Shown here piece after piece: positions 10,621 through 35,716 of a stretch of DNA of 35,950 nt. The notes under the pieces were generated by a model that was not told the origin of the DNA, made no database searches, and worked only from the letters and a program-made list of their open reading frames with translations. Source of the DNA: a virus; IMG/VR virus record IMGVR_UViG_3300026479_000027, positions 1 to 35,950 of that record; one strand, given 5' to 3'. Made by a program: the position numbers and the translations under genes. Position 1 is the first letter of the stretch, and each line of letters opens with the position of its first letter.

Positions 10621-12171
10621 TTAATCGTTAGTTGAGAAAGCGATTTGGATTATTCCCGCAATTTCTCTATATTGGGTTACTAAAATTACTTTCATTTGAA
10701 TGCTAACTTTGCCTAATGCTTTATCAATAGAAATAATTAGGTTTTCGTCAAAGTAATTCAAAGAAGTTTCACCAGCTTCTAATAAAACGTAATCAGCGCC
10801 GGTAAGATCTTGGTAAAGTCTTTTAGAATAAGATCGAATTACAGGCTCATTTGCCATATCACGACCTTTAATAATGTCGCCTTCGGTTAAACGGGATTGA
10901 GCAAAACGTTTACGGTTATTATTGTAGAAATACTCCCTAACTTGGCTAGAGGTATCTACGTAGTTTAAAAACTTAAAGCTAATATCAGCATTGCCTGCAG
11001 TATCAGTTTTGTAAGTAGTATAGACTTCACCTGCTACAACTGCTGTTCCTGCAGGATTAGATCCAACAACAGTAACACCGGCATTAGATAAAGTTTCAAT
11101 TTCTAAATCATCAAAGCCTCTTCCTGTTTGGCTAGGAATTAAATCAGAAAAAGGGGTATTGAAATAAGGCTTAGAAGCTAAAGCCGGTCCGCCTAAAGCA
11201 TCTAATGCTCCATTTGAACTAATTACTAAATCTGAAACTGCAAAGCCTTCAACGTCAAGCCTTAGTGCTCTATAACCTGCAAAAGCAGAGGCTTTCATCA
11301 TAGGTGTTTCAACGATGTCGCCGCCTTTGTAATTAGTTTCTGATTCTAATTTACCTCCAAAAATAACTAGGGATTGGCTATTAAGCCCGCTAGCTAAAGT
11401 TGTTAAATTACCAACGGTATCGTTAACAGCGGTAAATGCTACGCCATCTTGAACCTTGCCGTCTGCATTAAATCGTGCATCTAATAAACTTAGCACTTCA
11501 GTTGTTGCGGCAGGGTAAGGCCAAACAATCGCTTGGTAGCGAGTTTCGCCAATAACGTCAAAAATACCTGTTAAAACAGGATCTGTTGCGCCAACAGTAG
11601 AAAGGTTAACCGAACTGCCCAGGCCTGCAATAGAACCTCTAACTTCTACAGGAATGCTGTCACCATAAGTACCACCATTAGCTGCGGTAATAGTTACTGT
11701 ACCTGCGTTATTAGATGCGGTAGCTTGTACAGTAGGATCTGCAGTGATTGCAGCTTCAACTGCATCACCTATAACAGTAAGCGAGTCGCCTGAGCTAATA
11801 GCTATACTATATTTATGATTTTTTTCAGAGCCAACGATAACCGTTAGTGTTCCGGATTCAGTTGGGGAACCAGCAAAGATTACACTAATCTCACCCTTAG
11901 TAGCTGTGCCGTTATCGCCTAACGGAATAGCATCAACTTGAACTTGTTGGTTTCTAGATTTGTTAGCGCGAACTAATCCTGCTAACATTGAACGTGGGCC
12001 AAATAAAGCGTCTTCCGCTCCGCCATTAGCTATATTTTGAACTAGTTGGCCCGGGGTAGCTGTACCTGTTAGCATTTGGCCAACAATTAAAATTTTCTGT
12101 TCTGTGTTTAACGCCGTCCGTGAGGAAGGGCTAATCACAAAGTTTGTTTTTGGCTGTCTAATAATAGTCAT
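10621..12171 (-). CDS. Tail sheath protein (Mu gpL family)
   Basis: The 516-aa product starts with the extended N-terminal arm and VGQMLTGTATPGQLVQNI, and contains FGPRSMLAGLVRANK (about 58-72), both typical of the Mu-like sheath. Variable beta insert domains lie at about 95-190. The conserved C-terminal part holds the RDMANEPVIRSYSKRLY-type segment that makes the tube-facing core and linking arm. Its ATG overlaps the DUF2635 gene stop (ATGA). It shows that the virion has a contractile tail. Confidence 0.94.
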   Translation of the reverse strand: MTIIRQPKTNFVISPSSRTALNTEQKILIVGQMLTGTATPGQLVQNIANGGAEDALFGPRSMLAGLVRANKSRNQQVQVDAIPLGDNGTATKGEISVIFAGSPTESGTLTVIVGSEKNHKYSIAISSGDSLTVIGDAVEAAITADPTVQATASNNAGTVTITAANGGTYGDSIPVEVRGSIAGLGSSVNLSTVGATDPVLTGIFDVIGETRYQAIVWPYPAATTEVLSLLDARFNADGKVQDGVAFTAVNDTVGNLTTLASGLNSQSLVIFGGKLESETNYKGGDIVETPMMKASAFAGYRALRLDVEGFAVSDLVISSNGALDALGGPALASKPYFNTPFSDLIPSQTGRGFDDLEIETLSNAGVTVVGSNPAGTAVVAGEVYTTYKTDTAGNADISFKFLNYVDTSSQVREYFYNNNRKRFAQSRLTEGDIIKGRDMANEPVIRSYSKRLYQDLTGADYVLLEAGETSLNYFDENLIISIDKALGKVSIQMKVILVTQYREIAGIIQIAFSTND

Positions 12172-12359
12172 TTCTCAACCTTCCTCGCTTTGGGTTTTGG
12201 TTTTGGTTTAGGTGGTACTGGTTCGACACAATTGTCGGTTTGTGCATCTTTTAATCTCTGTCTCCAAAACTTAGACAAGGGTTTGCCGTATGCATCCGAG
12301 TCTATTATAACAAATCCTGAATAGTTTTGAACATTATTTATTTTCAATTTAATTTTCAT
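12168..12359 (-). CDS. DUF2635-like small protein (Mu gp38 position)
   Basis: The 63-aa product has the short beta start and the segment GKPLSKFWRQRLKDAQTDNC. This fits the W-x-R-RL-x-DG pattern of DUF2635 proteins, which precede the sheath gene in Mu-type phages. The C-terminus is a Pro/Lys tail (PPKPKPKPKARKVEK). Its exact role is unknown. It overlaps both neighbours by four bases. Confidence 0.72.
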   Translation of the reverse strand: MKIKLKINNVQNYSGFVIIDSDAYGKPLSKFWRQRLKDAQTDNCVEPVPPKPKPKPKARKVEK

Positions 12360-13438
12360 AAAGGCTCTTCATCTAAGTTTATTGAAGCAATTAAGTTTTC
12401 ACTTCCATGACTTATACCCATATCTATAGAAATATCTCTGAAAGCCACGTCTATATCGGGAATAAATACATCTGTTGGTCCCATTTGTAAAGTACATTCA
12501 AAAGCATATTGGTGTACGTAAAATGCGGAATTGTATGTTTGAAACCCGTGGCCAGTTATCATTAACGGGTTATTATTGTTTTCAACTAACGAAGGAAATT
12601 TGTACGTCAGAATGCTATTACAAATAGGCTTTAATAATTCTTCGCACCTGTCGCGTGCTTGCCTAGCTGCAATTTGTTCGTTAGTAGGTAAAAACAAATA
12701 CAAAGAAAAAGACTGCACCAACCTTTGGTTGAAATAATTTCCTGACTGGATATTATCTGTGCTGTCCGTTTCAATCTTTCGGCTTTTATCTGCAATGCTA
12801 TCGCCTAGCACTACAAATAGCCACGCTTTATCTTGTCCTTGTTTAGTATAAGCCTCTAATAGCCTTTCAAAATCTACCGAAGCAGAAATGCGGGGATTGG
12901 ATTTGGCTATTATTGCTCCCTCTGCAGGGCTATATAAATTGCTAGGAACTAAATACTGAAAAGTGTTTTCACTAGGCGTAGACGTAATTTGGACTAACCC
13001 GTTATAGTTATTAAAAGGACTAGAGCCGTTTAATAAAAGGGCTGGGCCAGTAGAATTAGTTGGGCCGGAATCTGAAACGGTAAATTTTAAAGTTCTTCTA
13101 TTTGGTACCTTAAGTAAAACAAAGCTTCCATTAAATTCCGATTGGTCTGACCCGTTAATTTGTACATTAAATCCTGCGTTTTCGGTTATGTCGTGGTCCG
13201 TTTGGGTAATCATTGTTGCAATACTGCCTAACCGAGAAATGCTTAAAATTTCTATAGGAGTTTGTGCACCAGTAATAATAATTTGTCTTCCTGCTATTAA
13301 ACCGTGCGGGCTATTTGTAGTTGCTGTAGCTACACCCGAACTTTGTACAATAGAGGAAACAGGGACTTGATCCGTAAAGTCGTCTACAAGGGAGGGTAAA
13401 ACTGTAGCCAACTGATTTACAATATCTGAGGATCTCAT
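12356..13438 (-). CDS. Tail terminator-like protein (Mu gp37 position) with nested beta-domain insertions
   Basis: The C-terminal half (about 185-360) looks like the Mu gp37/tail-terminator family: AWLFVVLGDSIADKSR, a middle FNQRLVQSFSLYLFLPTNEQ strand, then an RDRCEELLKPI helix. The N-terminal half contains an HGL-type beta domain (TNSPHGLIAG...NTFQYLV...PAEGAI). This is interrupted by a second copy of the same fold at about 64-138 (DHDI...INGSDQSEFNGSF...LKFTV). The family is normally 150-200 aa, so the size difference is explained by these inserts. It lies between the neck gene and DUF2635/sheath, as in Mu. Confidence 0.75.
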   Translation of the reverse strand: MRSSDIVNQLATVLPSLVDDFTDQVPVSSIVQSSGVATATTNSPHGLIAGRQIIITGAQTPIEILSISRLGSIATMITQTDHDITENAGFNVQINGSDQSEFNGSFVLLKVPNRRTLKFTVSDSGPTNSTGPALLLNGSSPFNNYNGLVQITSTPSENTFQYLVPSNLYSPAEGAIIAKSNPRISASVDFERLLEAYTKQGQDKAWLFVVLGDSIADKSRKIETDSTDNIQSGNYFNQRLVQSFSLYLFLPTNEQIAARQARDRCEELLKPICNSILTYKFPSLVENNNNPLMITGHGFQTYNSAFYVHQYAFECTLQMGPTDVFIPDIDVAFRDISIDMGISHGSENLIASINLDEEPL

Positions 13439-31120: not shown

Positions 31121-31861
31121 ATGCAAATCCAAGGTAGAAATATAGCAGAGGCTATTCAAGCTTCTCTAAGGGCTTTAGAATGCTACGGGGAGGTTAGCGT
31201 AACTGAATCATGGCAAGGTAGGAACGACGTAGACTTTTCATTTTTAGAATTAATCAATCTTAGTTTAAAGTTCCCGATGTCTAATAATTTAGCAGAACTT
31301 GAAAGATTATCTAAACCAACTATGCCTTGGGCAGAAGATCATTTTAGGGAAAGAGTTAGTGGCCAACCACTTAATCCCCCGCCAAGCCACAAACAATGGT
31401 TAACAAAAACTGAGGATTACTTAAGCGACTCTAAAAAGTTTTCCCACAGTTACCCAGAAAGGCTTTGGCCTAAAGGTTTAACAAAAGGAATTCGTTTCGA
31501 CACCGCAGACTTACATGATGCGGTTAAACTGCTAAAGGCAAATCCTACTACCCGCCAATGTTTTGTCCCAATCTATTTTCCAGAGGATTTAACGGCTGCA
31601 TTGCAAAATGAAAGGGTACCATGCACAATTGGCTGGCATTTTATAATTAGGCAAAACCAGGTGCATGTATTTTATCCTATGCGAGCCTGCGATGCTTTAC
31701 GCCATTTCCACAATGATTTATATTTTGCAAACCGTTTGGCAATCTGGATTAAAGATCAAGCAGGATTAGACGAAGTTGAAATGGGCCATATGCATTTTTC
31801 TTGTACTTCGTTCCACTGCTTTGTTAACGACAAATATGCTTTAAACAAAGCAATTAAATAG
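31121..31861 (+). CDS. Thymidylate-synthase-fold enzyme, possibly dCMP hydroxymethylase-like
   Basis: The 246-aa product aligns with the C-terminal two thirds of thymidylate synthase: VPCTIGWHF holds the nucleophile (Cys168), YPMRACD matches QRSCD (Arg188, Asp191), and SFHCF matches the DTHLY region (His232). Counting without gaps from Asp191, the residue that is Asn177 in E. coli TS is Asp199 here (Asn198 is next to it). Asn-to-Asp at this place is the feature of dCMP hydroxymethylases. It is followed by kinase, amidotransferase, MazG-like and dCMP deaminase genes. CCGGAG precedes the ATG. The fold is sure; the exact reaction is not. Confidence 0.78.
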   Translation: MQIQGRNIAEAIQASLRALECYGEVSVTESWQGRNDVDFSFLELINLSLKFPMSNNLAELERLSKPTMPWAEDHFRERVSGQPLNPPPSHKQWLTKTEDYLSDSKKFSHSYPERLWPKGLTKGIRFDTADLHDAVKLLKANPTTRQCFVPIYFPEDLTAALQNERVPCTIGWHFIIRQNQVHVFYPMRACDALRHFHNDLYFANRLAIWIKDQAGLDEVEMGHMHFSCTSFHCFVNDKYALNKAIK

Positions 31862-31870
31862 GAAATTTTT

Positions 31871-32386
31871 ATGATTATTATATTAGAAGGCCCTGACGGC
31901 TCTGGAAAAACAACTTTGGGGCATAGTTTATCTAAAGAGCTAGGAATAGACTACGATGGTCCTAAAATACTACAAACAAATCAGCAGATTATTAACCACA
32001 TTGACCATCAAGAGGACCTAGCAAATTCCAACAAAGTAACCTTGGTAGACCGGTGCCCCTGGATTTCAGAATTAGTCTATTCGCCGGTAAGGCGCCAGGT
32101 GATTAGAATTAATTTGGCCAAAATTCAATACTATTGGGCTTTACCCCAAATCGTTATTTATTGCTGTCCTACCGGGATTACCAAATTAGATATTAGCCGG
32201 GAATACAAGGAGCACAAAAATCAGGATTTAATGGATTCGGTTTTAAAAAACCACGAAAAAATTATTAACCAATATGAAAAGCTTTTTGATACTAACAAAA
32301 GCACGTTTTCGGGTTTTTACCAATACAACTGGAAAATGCCAGGCGAATATGACAAATTAGTTAAATATTTAAAGGATAGAATCTAA
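31871..32386 (+). CDS. P-loop deoxynucleotide kinase (thymidylate kinase-like)
   Basis: The 171-aa product opens IIILEGPDGSGKTTLG (Walker A, residues 7-15) and has VDRCPWISELVY (Asp60-Arg61), the DRx motif of thymidylate kinase-like enzymes. A C-terminal helical region (NHEKIINQYEKLF) follows. It could phosphorylate dNMPs, including a modified one made by the upstream enzyme; kinases acting on hydroxymethyl bases in DNA are another possibility. AGGAAATTTTT precedes the ATG; its stop overlaps the next start (TAATG). Confidence 0.82.
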   Translation: MIIILEGPDGSGKTTLGHSLSKELGIDYDGPKILQTNQQIINHIDHQEDLANSNKVTLVDRCPWISELVYSPVRRQVIRINLAKIQYYWALPQIVIYCCPTGITKLDISREYKEHKNQDLMDSVLKNHEKIINQYEKLFDTNKSTFSGFYQYNWKMPGEYDKLVKYLKDRI

Positions 32387-33714
32387 TGTGCGGCTTAATT
32401 ACATCGTTAGACACTAGGGTTAGCTACGAAGATATTAAAAAAGCTATAGACAAAATGAGTTATCGCGGGGACGTTCCTCCGGTAGTTACCCCCTGTGAAG
32501 AAGGCTTTGCTGCCCACGTTTCTTTACCCCTTTGCTCTTTAGATCCCTATGCATATTCTCAACCGGTTAATGGCTTCTCTTTTGTCGGGGAAATATTTAA
32601 CTACAAAGAAATTGACCCTAGTGCAGTTAATGATGTCCATATGATCAGGGATTTAATTATAGAAAAGGAAAACGAAAGCCAATTTTCCTGGATTAAAGAC
32701 CTCCACCGTTTGGATGGCTTTTGGGCTATTAGTTATATAAACAAAGAAAACCAGCTTATAGCTATTAGTGACTACTTATCACAAAAGCCAATTTATTATA
32801 GAACAGACCGAAACGTTGTTGCTTCTGAAATAGATTGCCTTTTAGATCTTGCTAAGGTTACCGAAGACAAAGTCTATATGAGTAACATAATGAAATGGGG
32901 TTACGATCCTACAGGCAGAACACCTTATAATGAAATTAAACAAATGCCACCAGGAAGCATATATAAGGACGGAATAATCGAAACTTACTGGGATTGGTCG
33001 CTAATACAGGCTCAAGATTTAGTTTTAGACAACCTAACTAAGGCTGTAGCCAATAGAATTGACGCTAGCAGGCCCATATCTTTGTTATTATCGGGGGGTT
33101 TGGACAGTTCAATTATTTACGAAATAGCTAAAAGGTTCATTCCAGACATTAAGGTTTTCCATGTAGAAAATGATGAAAGCCAGTATGCCGATTTAATAAC
33201 AAAAAACAGAACCAACGTTAAGCTAGATAATGTTACAGATGAAGAAGCAGTGGCAATTCACCAAACCCCCGTAGATCTGGGTAGTGTTAAACCACAAATA
33301 GCTTTAGCAAAAGCAATTAAAAAAGAAAAAGGTTATCAAATAGTGTTAACCGGTGACGGCGCAGACGAGCTTTTTGGAGGCTATAGAAGAAGCCAGGACT
33401 ACGATAGCCAAATGTCCGATGTATTTTTGGAACTACCTTATTACCATTTGCCCAAATTAGATAGGGTAATGATGCATAGTACAACCGAAGTAAGAAGTCC
33501 TTTTCTTGCCCCCTACATGGTTAAGTTCGCTATGTCGCTGCCGTATTCCGAACGGATTAACAAAAAACATTTAAAGGAAGCTGTTTCAAGGTTTATTCCC
33601 GAAGAAATTATTAACCGTAAAAAAGTACCACTTAAAACCAAAGAAATAGCATTGGGTCTTTTAACCAATACTAAAAACAACATTAACACTTTTAGGAGAT
33701 TAAAAAATGATTAA
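32386..33714 (+). CDS. Asparagine synthetase-like glutamine amidotransferase
   Basis: The 442-aa product keeps the class II glutaminase (Cys2 as nucleophile in MCGL, MSYRGD at 24-29, GEIFN with Asn72) and the AsnB synthetase domain (PP-loop SGGLDSS 236-242, LTGDGADELFGGY about 321-333). It is about 100 aa shorter than E. coli AsnB; the C-terminal part is reduced. AsnB makes an AMP-activated carboxylate and transfers ammonia to it. Here it sits inside a pyrimidine-nucleotide operon with one-base and 8-base overlaps, so its substrate may be a nucleotide or a base in DNA and not aspartate. That is inference. Confidence 0.88.
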   Translation: MCGLITSLDTRVSYEDIKKAIDKMSYRGDVPPVVTPCEEGFAAHVSLPLCSLDPYAYSQPVNGFSFVGEIFNYKEIDPSAVNDVHMIRDLIIEKENESQFSWIKDLHRLDGFWAISYINKENQLIAISDYLSQKPIYYRTDRNVVASEIDCLLDLAKVTEDKVYMSNIMKWGYDPTGRTPYNEIKQMPPGSIYKDGIIETYWDWSLIQAQDLVLDNLTKAVANRIDASRPISLLLSGGLDSSIIYEIAKRFIPDIKVFHVENDESQYADLITKNRTNVKLDNVTDEEAVAIHQTPVDLGSVKPQIALAKAIKKEKGYQIVLTGDGADELFGGYRRSQDYDSQMSDVFLELPYYHLPKLDRVMMHSTTEVRSPFLAPYMVKFAMSLPYSERINKKHLKEAVSRFIPEEIINRKKVPLKTKEIALGLLTNTKNNINTFRRLKND

Positions 33715-34087
33715 ATCTATTGAAACGTTTAACCGCAAAATTATAGGCGTTAAAGAAACTAAGCCATGCAGACTAAAAGACAATGATCGGGCATGGCTTA
33801 TTGCAGCATTAGACGAAGAACTTCAAGAGTTTATAGATTCCCCTTCTTTAATAGACGATGCAGATGCACTTTTGGATCTGTGTTATTTTGCTATTGGCGG
33901 GTTGGTTCGTTCTGGGTTATCGGCAAAACAAATAGAAGAAATTTTTAATGTTATCCATAATGCTAATATGAATAAAGATGCGGGGATTAAATCTACCCGG
34001 AAAGGCTACGACGGGGTCACAGATGCAATTAAACCCGAGGGATGGATGCCCCCTGAAGACCAAATTAAGGATATAATATATGAATAA
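33707..34087 (+). CDS. MazG-like nucleotide pyrophosphohydrolase
   Basis: The 126-aa product has the metal-binding pattern EExxE (Glu37, Glu38, Glu41) and DDADALLDLCY (Asp51-Asp57) of the all-alpha NTP pyrophosphohydrolases. The NANMNKD segment and KGYDGVTDAIKP near the C-terminus are common in phage members. Substrates could be dCTP or dUTP, as for the T4 dCTPase, or others. It overlaps the AsnB-like gene by 8 bases and the deaminase gene by 8. Confidence 0.82.
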   Translation: MIKSIETFNRKIIGVKETKPCRLKDNDRAWLIAALDEELQEFIDSPSLIDDADALLDLCYFAIGGLVRSGLSAKQIEEIFNVIHNANMNKDAGIKSTRKGYDGVTDAIKPEGWMPPEDQIKDIIYE

Positions 34088-34502
34088 AAACGTTTTGTTA
34101 ATGGAAACCGCAAAACTTTGGTCTAAAGCTTCCCATGCAAAAAGACACAAGGTAGGGTGCATTATTGCTAAGGATCACAGAATTCTTAGCACGGGCTACA
34201 ATGGAACCTTACCGGGAAGAAACAACTCCTGTGAAAAGGACGGGGTGACATTAGACGAAGTTATGCACGCAGAGCAAAATGCTTTAATTTTTTGTTCTAA
34301 GCACGGTCTTTCCACCCAAGGGTGTAGCATTTACGTAACCCTAAGCCCCTGCATGGCTTGCAGCAAAATGATAATAATGAGTGGGATTAAAGAACTATTT
34401 TACGCTGAAAGCTATCGGGATTTATCACCTTTGGATTTGCTACGTTCCGAAGGCGTTAAGGTTACCCAAATTAAGGAGGAACTTTCTAATGAAAGCAAAT
34501 AA
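34080..34502 (+). CDS. dCMP deaminase
   Basis: The 140-aa product has the zinc deaminase motifs HAEQNAL (His63, Glu65) and PCMAC (Cys91, Cys94), plus the early GCIIAKDHRILSTGYNG segment typical of the ComEB/T4 Cd family. It turns dCMP into dUMP, feeding pyrimidine supply. AAGGA precedes the ATG; the end overlaps the start of the small regulator gene. Confidence 0.92.
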   Translation: MNKNVLLMETAKLWSKASHAKRHKVGCIIAKDHRILSTGYNGTLPGRNNSCEKDGVTLDEVMHAEQNALIFCSKHGLSTQGCSIYVTLSPCMACSKMIIMSGIKELFYAESYRDLSPLDLLRSEGVKVTQIKEELSNESK

Positions 34503-34699: not shown

Positions 34700-35209
34700 A
34701 TGGATAGAAAAACTCGTGTTTGTTTAGTTTGTAATAATCCTATAAGCACTAGCAAAAGGATAGATGCTAAGTATTGTTCAACTAAATGCGGAAATCGGGC
34801 CCGATGTAAAAAGTTTTCTGACCTTAACCCGAAAAAGATGGCTGAATATAGAGTCACTGAAAATAACAAAGTTCAATCCCGAATTTATAGTAGAATTAAG
34901 TCGCGATCTAAAATTAGGAACATACCATTTGATTTAGAAATAGAGGACATAGTCGTTCCCGATTTTTGCCCTGTTTTAGGCATTAAGATAAAAAGTGTTG
35001 CAGGGTCCGGCACAAACTTTAAAAACTCCCCCTCCGTTGATAGAATAGATCCAAACAGAGGTTATACTAAGGATAATATAAGAATTATATCTAACAGGGC
35101 AAACCTTCTCAAGAGTAATGCAACAGTCGAAGAGATGGAAAAAATTTTAGCTGACATTAAAAAGATTAGGCTTGAAAAAACACTAAAAGGCCTAAGTAAT
35201 CTAATTTAA
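34700..35209 (+). CDS. HNH / endonuclease VII-like nuclease with N-terminal zinc finger
   Basis: Residues 8-30 hold a four-Cys zinc finger (CLVC...CSTKC). The C-terminal half has FCPVLGI, then SVDRIDPNRGYTKDN (about 111-126) and IISNRANLLKSN, the pattern of phage HNH endonucleases related to recombination endonuclease VII, many of which are free-standing homing enzymes. It starts one base after the regulator stop with AGAGG upstream. A role in DNA branch cutting or as a selfish homing gene are both possible. Confidence 0.85.
   Translation: MDRKTRVCLVCNNPISTSKRIDAKYCSTKCGNRARCKKFSDLNPKKMAEYRVTENNKVQSRIYSRIKSRSKIRNIPFDLEIEDIVVPDFCPVLGIKIKSVAGSGTNFKNSPSVDRIDPNRGYTKDNIRIISNRANLLKSNATVEEMEKILADIKKIRLEKTLKGLSNLI
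35047..35064 (+). repeat. 18-base direct repeat, copy 2 (inside HNH gene)
   Basis: Matches 34680-34697 at 17 of 18 bases; encodes DPNRG of the conserved HNH motif. Confidence 0.8.
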
Positions 35210-35241: not shown

Positions 35242-35278
35242 ACCCATAGTAAAAACTAAAATTAACTTGGAAATTGCT

Positions 35279-35716
35279 ATGACTAGAATTAATACTATAG
35301 ACCCCTCCCTTTTAACAGATAAGCATTTGCTAGCAGAATATAAGGAAATTACTAGGCCCTTTAATAAGGTTATTAACCGCATAGAAAAGCACGGAATAAA
35401 CGACGCTTTAACCAACTGCAAAATACCCGAGAGATATACCTTAGGATCGGGACACGAAACTTTTTTCTTTAATAAACTAGAATGGCTATACAATCGTTAC
35501 TTAAGCTTGTATAGGGAGTTGAAGTCTAGATCATTCAATGTTAACAGCGAAGCATTTAAAGAAATCTCTACTGCTTTTCTTAAGCTAGCCCCTACACCCT
35601 ACTGGAATAGCTATGAGCCCTCCCCCGAGGATCATTACTTAAATATGGTCCGAATCTGTATTCGATCTAATTTAGATACTGTTAATTCCGAGTTAATTCA
35701 GATTAATTTCGATTAG
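35279..35716 (+). CDS. denV: Pyrimidine dimer DNA glycosylase (T4 endonuclease V, DenV family)
   Basis: From ATG 35279 the product is 145 aa. MTRIN gives the N-terminal Thr2 that acts as nucleophile after Met removal, and AEYKE puts the catalytic Glu at position 23, exactly as in T4. IPERYTLGSGHETFFFNKLEWL matches the T4 ILGAGHVTFFYDKLEFL segment (shown in part). It removes UV-induced dimers. A TTG four codons upstream would hide Thr2, so the ATG is the right start. The C-terminus (PTPYWNSYEPSPEDHYLN) differs from T4. It stands alone between two promoters. Confidence 0.92.
   Translation: MTRINTIDPSLLTDKHLLAEYKEITRPFNKVINRIEKHGINDALTNCKIPERYTLGSGHETFFFNKLEWLYNRYLSLYRELKSRSFNVNSEAFKEISTAFLKLAPTPYWNSYEPSPEDHYLNMVRICIRSNLDTVNSELIQINFD

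Follow-up and report, generated by a model that had tools for sequence, protein, structure and literature searches.

The virus record IMGVR_UViG_3300026479_000027 (IMG/VR; 35,950 bases, analysed in full and hereafter called the window) carries a five-gene operon (31121-34502, plus strand) which probably serves to put a C5-modified, nitrogen-bearing cytosine in place of cytosine in phage DNA. The proposal is founded on a thymidylate synthase-like (TS-like) enzyme with a cytosine-type active site, and on its linkage to an AsnB-like amidotransferase and a deoxycytidine monophosphate (dCMP) deaminase. All five genes of a preliminary description of this DNA were recovered on the plus strand at the positions proposed there, with the following assignments (Pfam, PHROGs and NCBIfam):

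31121-31861, plus strand: predicted TS-fold, dCMP-type C5-modifying enzyme (246 amino acids; phrog_160, 3.7e-24), with catalytic Cys168, Asp199 (E. coli Asn177), Thr169 (E. coli His147) and Asp191 (E. coli Asp169)
31871-32386, plus strand: P-loop nucleotide kinase, resembling deoxynucleoside monophosphate (dNMP) kinases (171 amino acids; phrog_761, 7e-18)
32386-33714, plus strand: AsnB-like amidotransferase/amide ligase (442 amino acids; Asn_synthase, 3e-38; GATase_7, 2e-6)
33707-34087, plus strand: PRA-PH/MazG-type all-alpha nucleoside triphosphate (NTP) pyrophosphohydrolase, candidate deoxycytidine triphosphatase (dCTPase) (126 amino acids; PRA-PH, 2e-7)
34080-34502, plus strand: dCMP deaminase (140 amino acids; phrog_174, 5e-51; HAE and PCxxC zinc motifs)

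The product of the first gene is divergent (Pfam TS 9e-5, 22 bits, below the curated cut-off), and its structural model (predicted local distance difference test score, pLDDT, 82) adopts the TS fold (Z 18-20). By residue numbering transferred through alignment to E. coli ThyA and T4 gp42, the position of E. coli Asn177 is occupied by Asp in all AsnB-linked TS proteins (66/66), in the 14 other family members (14/14) and in T4 gp42, while that of His147 holds Thr or Ser in the TS-like family, and Cys146, Arg166, Asp169 and His207 are retained. Positions 177 and 147 are those that separate the TS proteins of modified-cytosine contigs from other TS proteins (MetaGPA, PMC8670742), and work cited in the same study reports that the N177D substitution turns TS toward dCMP (PMC8670742). 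The Asn177 typical of ThyA is thus replaced by Asp in the window and in the AsnB-linked members alike, and the features of a T4-type dCMP hydroxymethylase (TS fold, catalytic Cys, Asp177, a residue other than His at 147) are all present. Furthermore, one related contig (that of L082) carries both a canonical TS (H147/N177) and a TS-like protein (S147/D177), and ThyX is encoded in 11 of 15 long related records (and within 7.5 kb of AsnB in 17-18 of the 48 distinct loci described below), from which it follows that synthesis of deoxythymidine monophosphate (dTMP) would not be the role of the TS-like gene. Judged by its residues, the protein is not a methylase of deoxyuridine monophosphate (dUMP), contrary to the outcome that the preliminary description had named as fatal to its proposal; and since Asp stands at 177 and Thr or Ser at 147, the modified pyrimidine suggested there may be narrowed to cytosine. 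We regard the cytosine-type nature of the site as well supported by these alignments. The TS tree joins the AsnB-linked proteins in one supported group, except for that of L002, which sits on a long branch of unsure placement.

The second line of evidence comes from gene linkage. When viral contigs were scanned with an AsnB alignment, 140 stretches encoding relatives were reported; the best 80 of these (together with earlier loci) yielded 48 distinct AsnB proteins (<95% identity). The viral relatives show 39-62% identity, and bacteria returned only distant ones (<=33% identity in the best segments). The TS/AsnB/dCMP-deaminase set recurs among at least 48 distinct AsnB loci: a TS gene lies within 4.5 kb of AsnB in every distinct locus that has 1.5 kb or more of left flank (42/42), and a dCMP deaminase gene downstream of AsnB in every one that has 1 kb or more of right flank (47/47). 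Homologues of MazG/PRA-PH occur no more than 7.5 kb from AsnB in 34 of the 48, a homologue of the kinase is found upstream of AsnB in L002 and L040, and an identical TS/kinase stretch is present on a second viral contig (L003, L004). By comparison, none of 80 bacterial AsnB neighbourhoods contained a TS gene, and one contained a dCMP deaminase gene. Moreover, the TS-AsnB unit accompanies three kinds of DNA polymerase: the small phage polymerase phrog_1252 (the group of the window), a family B polymerase (with a T4-like UvsX, L074) and a family A polymerase (L002). The arrangement is not due to chance, and its conservation is well supported by the loci compared; the co-occurrence that the preliminary description had proposed as a check was found in all distinct viral loci with enough flank, in line with its placement of AsnB in the same pathway as the TS-like enzyme.

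The AsnB-like protein joins a class II glutamine amidotransferase (GATase) domain with an N-terminal Cys to an ATP pyrophosphatase synthetase domain. Its model (pLDDT 90.9) recovers the full two-domain AsnB fold, with E. coli AsnB as the top structural match (Z 38.1 over 401 residues), so that structure prediction returned the expected fold for both enzymes; the score against NCBIfam TIGR01536 (166.9 bits) falls below the 267-bit cut-off. We compared the residues of 28 phage members with those of 79 to 80 bacterial relatives. With the E. coli and human asparagine synthetases (AsnB and ASNS; whole-chain Z 38 and 34) the phage clade shares Cys1, Arg30, Glu76, Asp98, the SGGLDS PP-loop, Asp351 and Lys449, and it also retains Gly75; both its fold and its catalytic residues are therefore well supported as those of an AsnB-type enzyme. 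It departs from them at Arg49 (replaced by Ser, Ala, Val or Met in 27/28 members) and Asn74 (Val, Ser or Thr in 28/28), each invariant in the 79 aligned bacterial relatives, and at Glu348, which is replaced by Asp. On the acceptor side, VDLGSV stands in place of the DVTTIR loop and an insertion (YDSQxSDVF) is unique to the clade, and the C terminus is shorter. The window protein has Ser and Val at the two glutamine-pocket positions and shares the shortened C terminus; the position of E. coli Glu58 is not reliably aligned, the invariant Glu77 on the same helix being a candidate equivalent. In the human enzyme, glutamine recognition and thioester stabilisation depend on a residue network that includes Arg48 and Asn74 (PMC6748925). 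Given the loss of Arg49 and Asn74, the nitrogen donor could be other than ordinary glutamine, and by its residues the enzyme looks like a still active adenylating amide-former whose donor and acceptor pockets are unlike those of asparagine synthetase.

In the pathway that we propose, the TS-fold enzyme would add a one-carbon group (most likely hydroxymethyl) at C5 of dCMP, and the kinase (a candidate for phosphorylation of the modified dCMP) would, with host enzymes, raise the product to the triphosphate. The PRA-PH/MazG enzyme, in its putative role as dCTPase, would clear plain deoxycytidine triphosphate (dCTP), and the deaminase would convert plain dCMP to dUMP for the supply of deoxythymidine triphosphate (dTTP), with the outcome that the polymerase would incorporate the modified cytosine. 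The AsnB-like enzyme, acting on DNA or on the nucleotide, would then adenylate either the group at C5 or a small acid destined for attachment there; coupling of the adenylate to a nitrogen nucleophile would provide the base with an amide or an amine. A precedent is offered by Synechococcus phage S-B43, in which CmoA and CmoX make 5-carboxymethylcytosine in DNA and CmoY, an asparagine synthetase homologue, joins glycine to it; the ligation has been demonstrated in vitro and its product detected in the DNA of the phage (PMC12783734). The same paper describes a second group of CmoY-type ligases that retains the glutaminase domain. A modified cytosine with a T4-like supply logic is likely, and here the preliminary description is borne out by the gene set and by the Asp177/Thr147 site. 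From linkage and precedent, AsnB is likely the enzyme that decorates the modified cytosine; its product may be an amide, an amine or something else, and ammonia is one candidate nucleophile.

To a fuller proposal we give about an even chance, namely that the cassette makes an undescribed base. Under this reading, the TS-fold enzyme would set a one-carbon group on C5 of dCMP, and a dedicated enzyme of the AsnB clade would convert that group to an amide or amine, perhaps with a nitrogen donor other than glutamine, across phages of differing replication modules. As AsnB-type ligation to modified cytosine in phage DNA is already published (CmoY, PMC12783734), the idea has more precedent than the preliminary description assumed; the literature searched contained no report of phages in which AsnB adjoins TS and dCMP deaminase. 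Base changes allow phages to evade restriction and CRISPR nucleases, and every known chemistry has been a source of enzymes with which DNA can be read or edited. The predicted route would unite modification at the level of dCMP with AsnB-type ligation in a TS-AsnB pair that is carried by many environmental phages and was not seen in the cultured phages searched. Its diagnostic residues (Asp177 in TS; absent Arg49 and Asn74 in AsnB) raise the questions of the AsnB nucleophile and of the C5 group.

Several observations weigh against this proposal. The AsnB-family enzymes known so far adenylate carboxylates, to which a hydroxymethyl group does not belong, and no enzyme that would make a carboxylate came out of searches for CmoA, for a C5-methylase (seen only in the L002 record) and for TET/JBP dioxygenases (the last, in 15 records, gave no match and likewise did not detect its positive control, and is hence uninformative). 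A carboxylate might be present on the TS product or be gained by it later; failing that, AsnB would have to activate a small acid or the oxygen of the hydroxymethyl group. The use of ordinary glutamine by a clade without Arg49 and Asn74 is doubtful, among the cultured phages of the INPHARED copy none carries an AsnB of the window clade, and for the TS model the phage dCMP hydroxylase AfhB is a better match (Z 20.2) than the cytidine monophosphate (CMP) hydroxymethylase MilA (Z 18.6), which means that the first step could yield 5-hydroxy-dCMP.

We consider it unlikely that the modified cytosine (hydroxymethyl-, methyl- or hydroxycytosine) is made without AsnB, the latter producing a small amide or altering a protein or the nucleotide pool. 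Such independence would agree with the many Gordonia, Mycobacterium, Streptomyces and Serratia phages (INPHARED) in which cytosine-type TS relatives occur without an AsnB of the window clade, so that the TS enzyme has no need of AsnB, and the acceptor of AsnB is not readable from sequence. Against it, the AsnB clade was never seen without TS and deaminase neighbours where the flank suffices, and phage AsnB-like proteins occur in two other base-modification clusters. In Streptomyces phage TurkishDelight (L208, 3544-6972), ParB-like genes, a CmoX homologue (37% identity), a glutaminase-type AsnB and a CmoA homologue stand in a row, likely as a cluster for 5-carboxymethylcytosine amidation; in Achromobacter phage Motura (L209, 4344-9095), an AsnB-like gene lies amid QueC, tRNA-guanine transglycosylase-like and QueE genes and possibly provides an amidation step in 7-deazaguanine DNA modification. 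Both AsnB proteins retain Arg49 and Asn74. AsnB-type enzymes are hence present in at least two other settings of phage base modification; a further one is that of the window clade, set apart by the TS beside it and by the changes in its glutamine pocket.

Quite unlikely, in our assessment, is a TS-fold enzyme that acts as an AfhB-like flavin-dependent dCMP hydroxylase, its 5-hydroxy-dCMP being decorated by AsnB thereafter. AfhB (9iqu/9iqc) is the nearest solved structure and the top profile match (E 1e-11), and is likewise short (234 amino acids). These matches are shared, however, with enzymes of other chemistries: MilA and ordinary TS lie within two Z units of AfhB, and in the TS-family profile the N229D L. 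casei TS, other TS proteins and MilA score much as AfhB does. Moreover, Asp169 (which in E. coli TS we take to touch the folate pterin) is retained in 80/80 family members and in gp42, yet is Asn in AfhB. Its retention is consistent with folate use by the TS-like enzyme, and because the family shares this residue with gp42 and differs in it from AfhB, we prefer hydroxymethylation, with a hydroxymethyl group on C5 of dCMP as the most likely product.

Returning to AsnB, we find it very improbable that it amidates 5-carboxymethylcytosine made by a C5 methyltransferase dependent on carboxy-S-adenosylmethionine (Cx-SAM), as in the CmoA/CmoX/CmoY system. The two systems are alike in pairing an asparagine synthetase homologue with a C5-modified cytosine in a phage (here predicted from genes), TurkishDelight groups homologues of CmoX and CmoA with a GATase-type AsnB, and the L002 record has a C5-methylase. 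That methylase is the only one among the records searched and has PEC in place of SPPC, and no match to CmoA above the cut-off was obtained in 23 records including the window (two short matches were sub-threshold, and the records may be partial). Furthermore, the S-B43 handle is made in DNA by a methyltransferase and its cluster has no TS; the S-B43 CmoY (271 amino acids) lacks the glutaminase domain of the window AsnB and was rejected as its orthologue, the hhalign comparison covering only 36 columns around the PP-loop; the S-B43 pyrophosphatase gave no match to the window MazG; and the CmoX-linked AsnB of TurkishDelight retains Arg49/Asn74. Nucleotide salvage (dUMP methylase, kinase and deaminase) beside an unrelated asparagine synthetase, which the preliminary description had held out as the dull alternative, is scarcely credible, for although every enzyme class is known from ordinary phage salvage and the first gene is labelled thymidylate synthase by Pfam and PHROGs, it is contradicted by Asp177/Thr147 throughout, by the ThyX or canonical TS coexisting in relatives, by the conserved TS-AsnB-deaminase unit and by the lost glutamine and acceptor residues.

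As regards its setting, the window reads as a tailed phage: its minus-strand arm holds head-, tail- and baseplate-like open reading frames (ORFs; judged by eye, with no family search made), and its plus-strand arm carries genes for replication, among them those of a phage DNA polymerase and of a SNF2-type helicase. The operon lies downstream of the helicase gene. The operon genes follow head to tail, and because neighbours are separated by a 9-base gap or overlap they are probably translationally coupled; GGAG immediately precedes the first ATG. Downstream of the operon are an HNH/endonuclease-VII-like protein (34700-35209) and a DenV-like pyrimidine-dimer glycosylase (35267-35716). In 18 of the 48 distinct loci, a conserved N6_N4_Mtase-like protein (PF01555; 285-310 amino acids; NPY/NPPY motif) adjoins or lies near TS-AsnB (upstream of TS in L005-L017; L040, 1527-2456; L002, 11542-12429; none seen in the window); the modified base might be its substrate. 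A few kb upstream of TS-AsnB, L074 (3973-4674), L078 and L084 encode a second PP-loop protein (233 amino acids, weak Asn_synthase/QueC match), and L074 also has a TauD-type dioxygenase (11841-12758). Where cytosine-type TS relatives occur without AsnB (L033, which is phage Muddy, L034, L035, L036 and L020-L032), the adjoining slot often holds an unknown protein of 250-380 amino acids (phrog_13667 and weakly related groups), some of the phages concerned being cultured actinophages. The phrog_13667 neighbour of TS in actinophages and others (once annotated as a pyrimidine hmase synthase) was considered as a possible second TS-like protein, a notion suggestive by eye and unsupported by profile comparison.

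Among known systems, the closest parallels in gene set are T4 and the MetaGPA cassette. The 5-hydroxymethylcytosine pathway of T4 consists of gp42 (dCMP hydroxymethylase), gp1 (dNMP kinase), gp56 (dCTPase), dCMP deaminase and glucosyltransferases. The window resembles it in having a TS fold with Asp177 and Thr147 and, nearby, a kinase, an all-alpha NTP pyrophosphohydrolase and a dCMP deaminase; it differs in a TS sequence very distant from gp42 and in the AsnB-like enzyme that occupies the decorating position, and no T4-type beta-glucosyltransferase was found in 15 related records, in a search that detected the T4 positive control. In the MetaGPA cassette, a dCMP-type TS and a carbamoyltransferase give 5-carbamoyloxymethyl-deoxycytidine, and PRA-PH, TS and dCMP deaminase likewise co-occur on the published modified-cytosine contigs (PMC8670742); an AsnB-like enzyme was not found in the main text of that paper. 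A carbamoyltransferase was rejected as the TS partner here, as Carbam_trans_N occurs in two of the 15 records (the two largest), tens of kb from TS, and in none of the other 13; annotation recognised none in the window, the dedicated search having covered the 15 related records. The operon thus has in common with the MetaGPA cassette an Asp177 TS, a PRA-PH protein and a dCMP deaminase alongside a decorating enzyme, and carries an AsnB-like enzyme where that cassette has a carbamoyltransferase.

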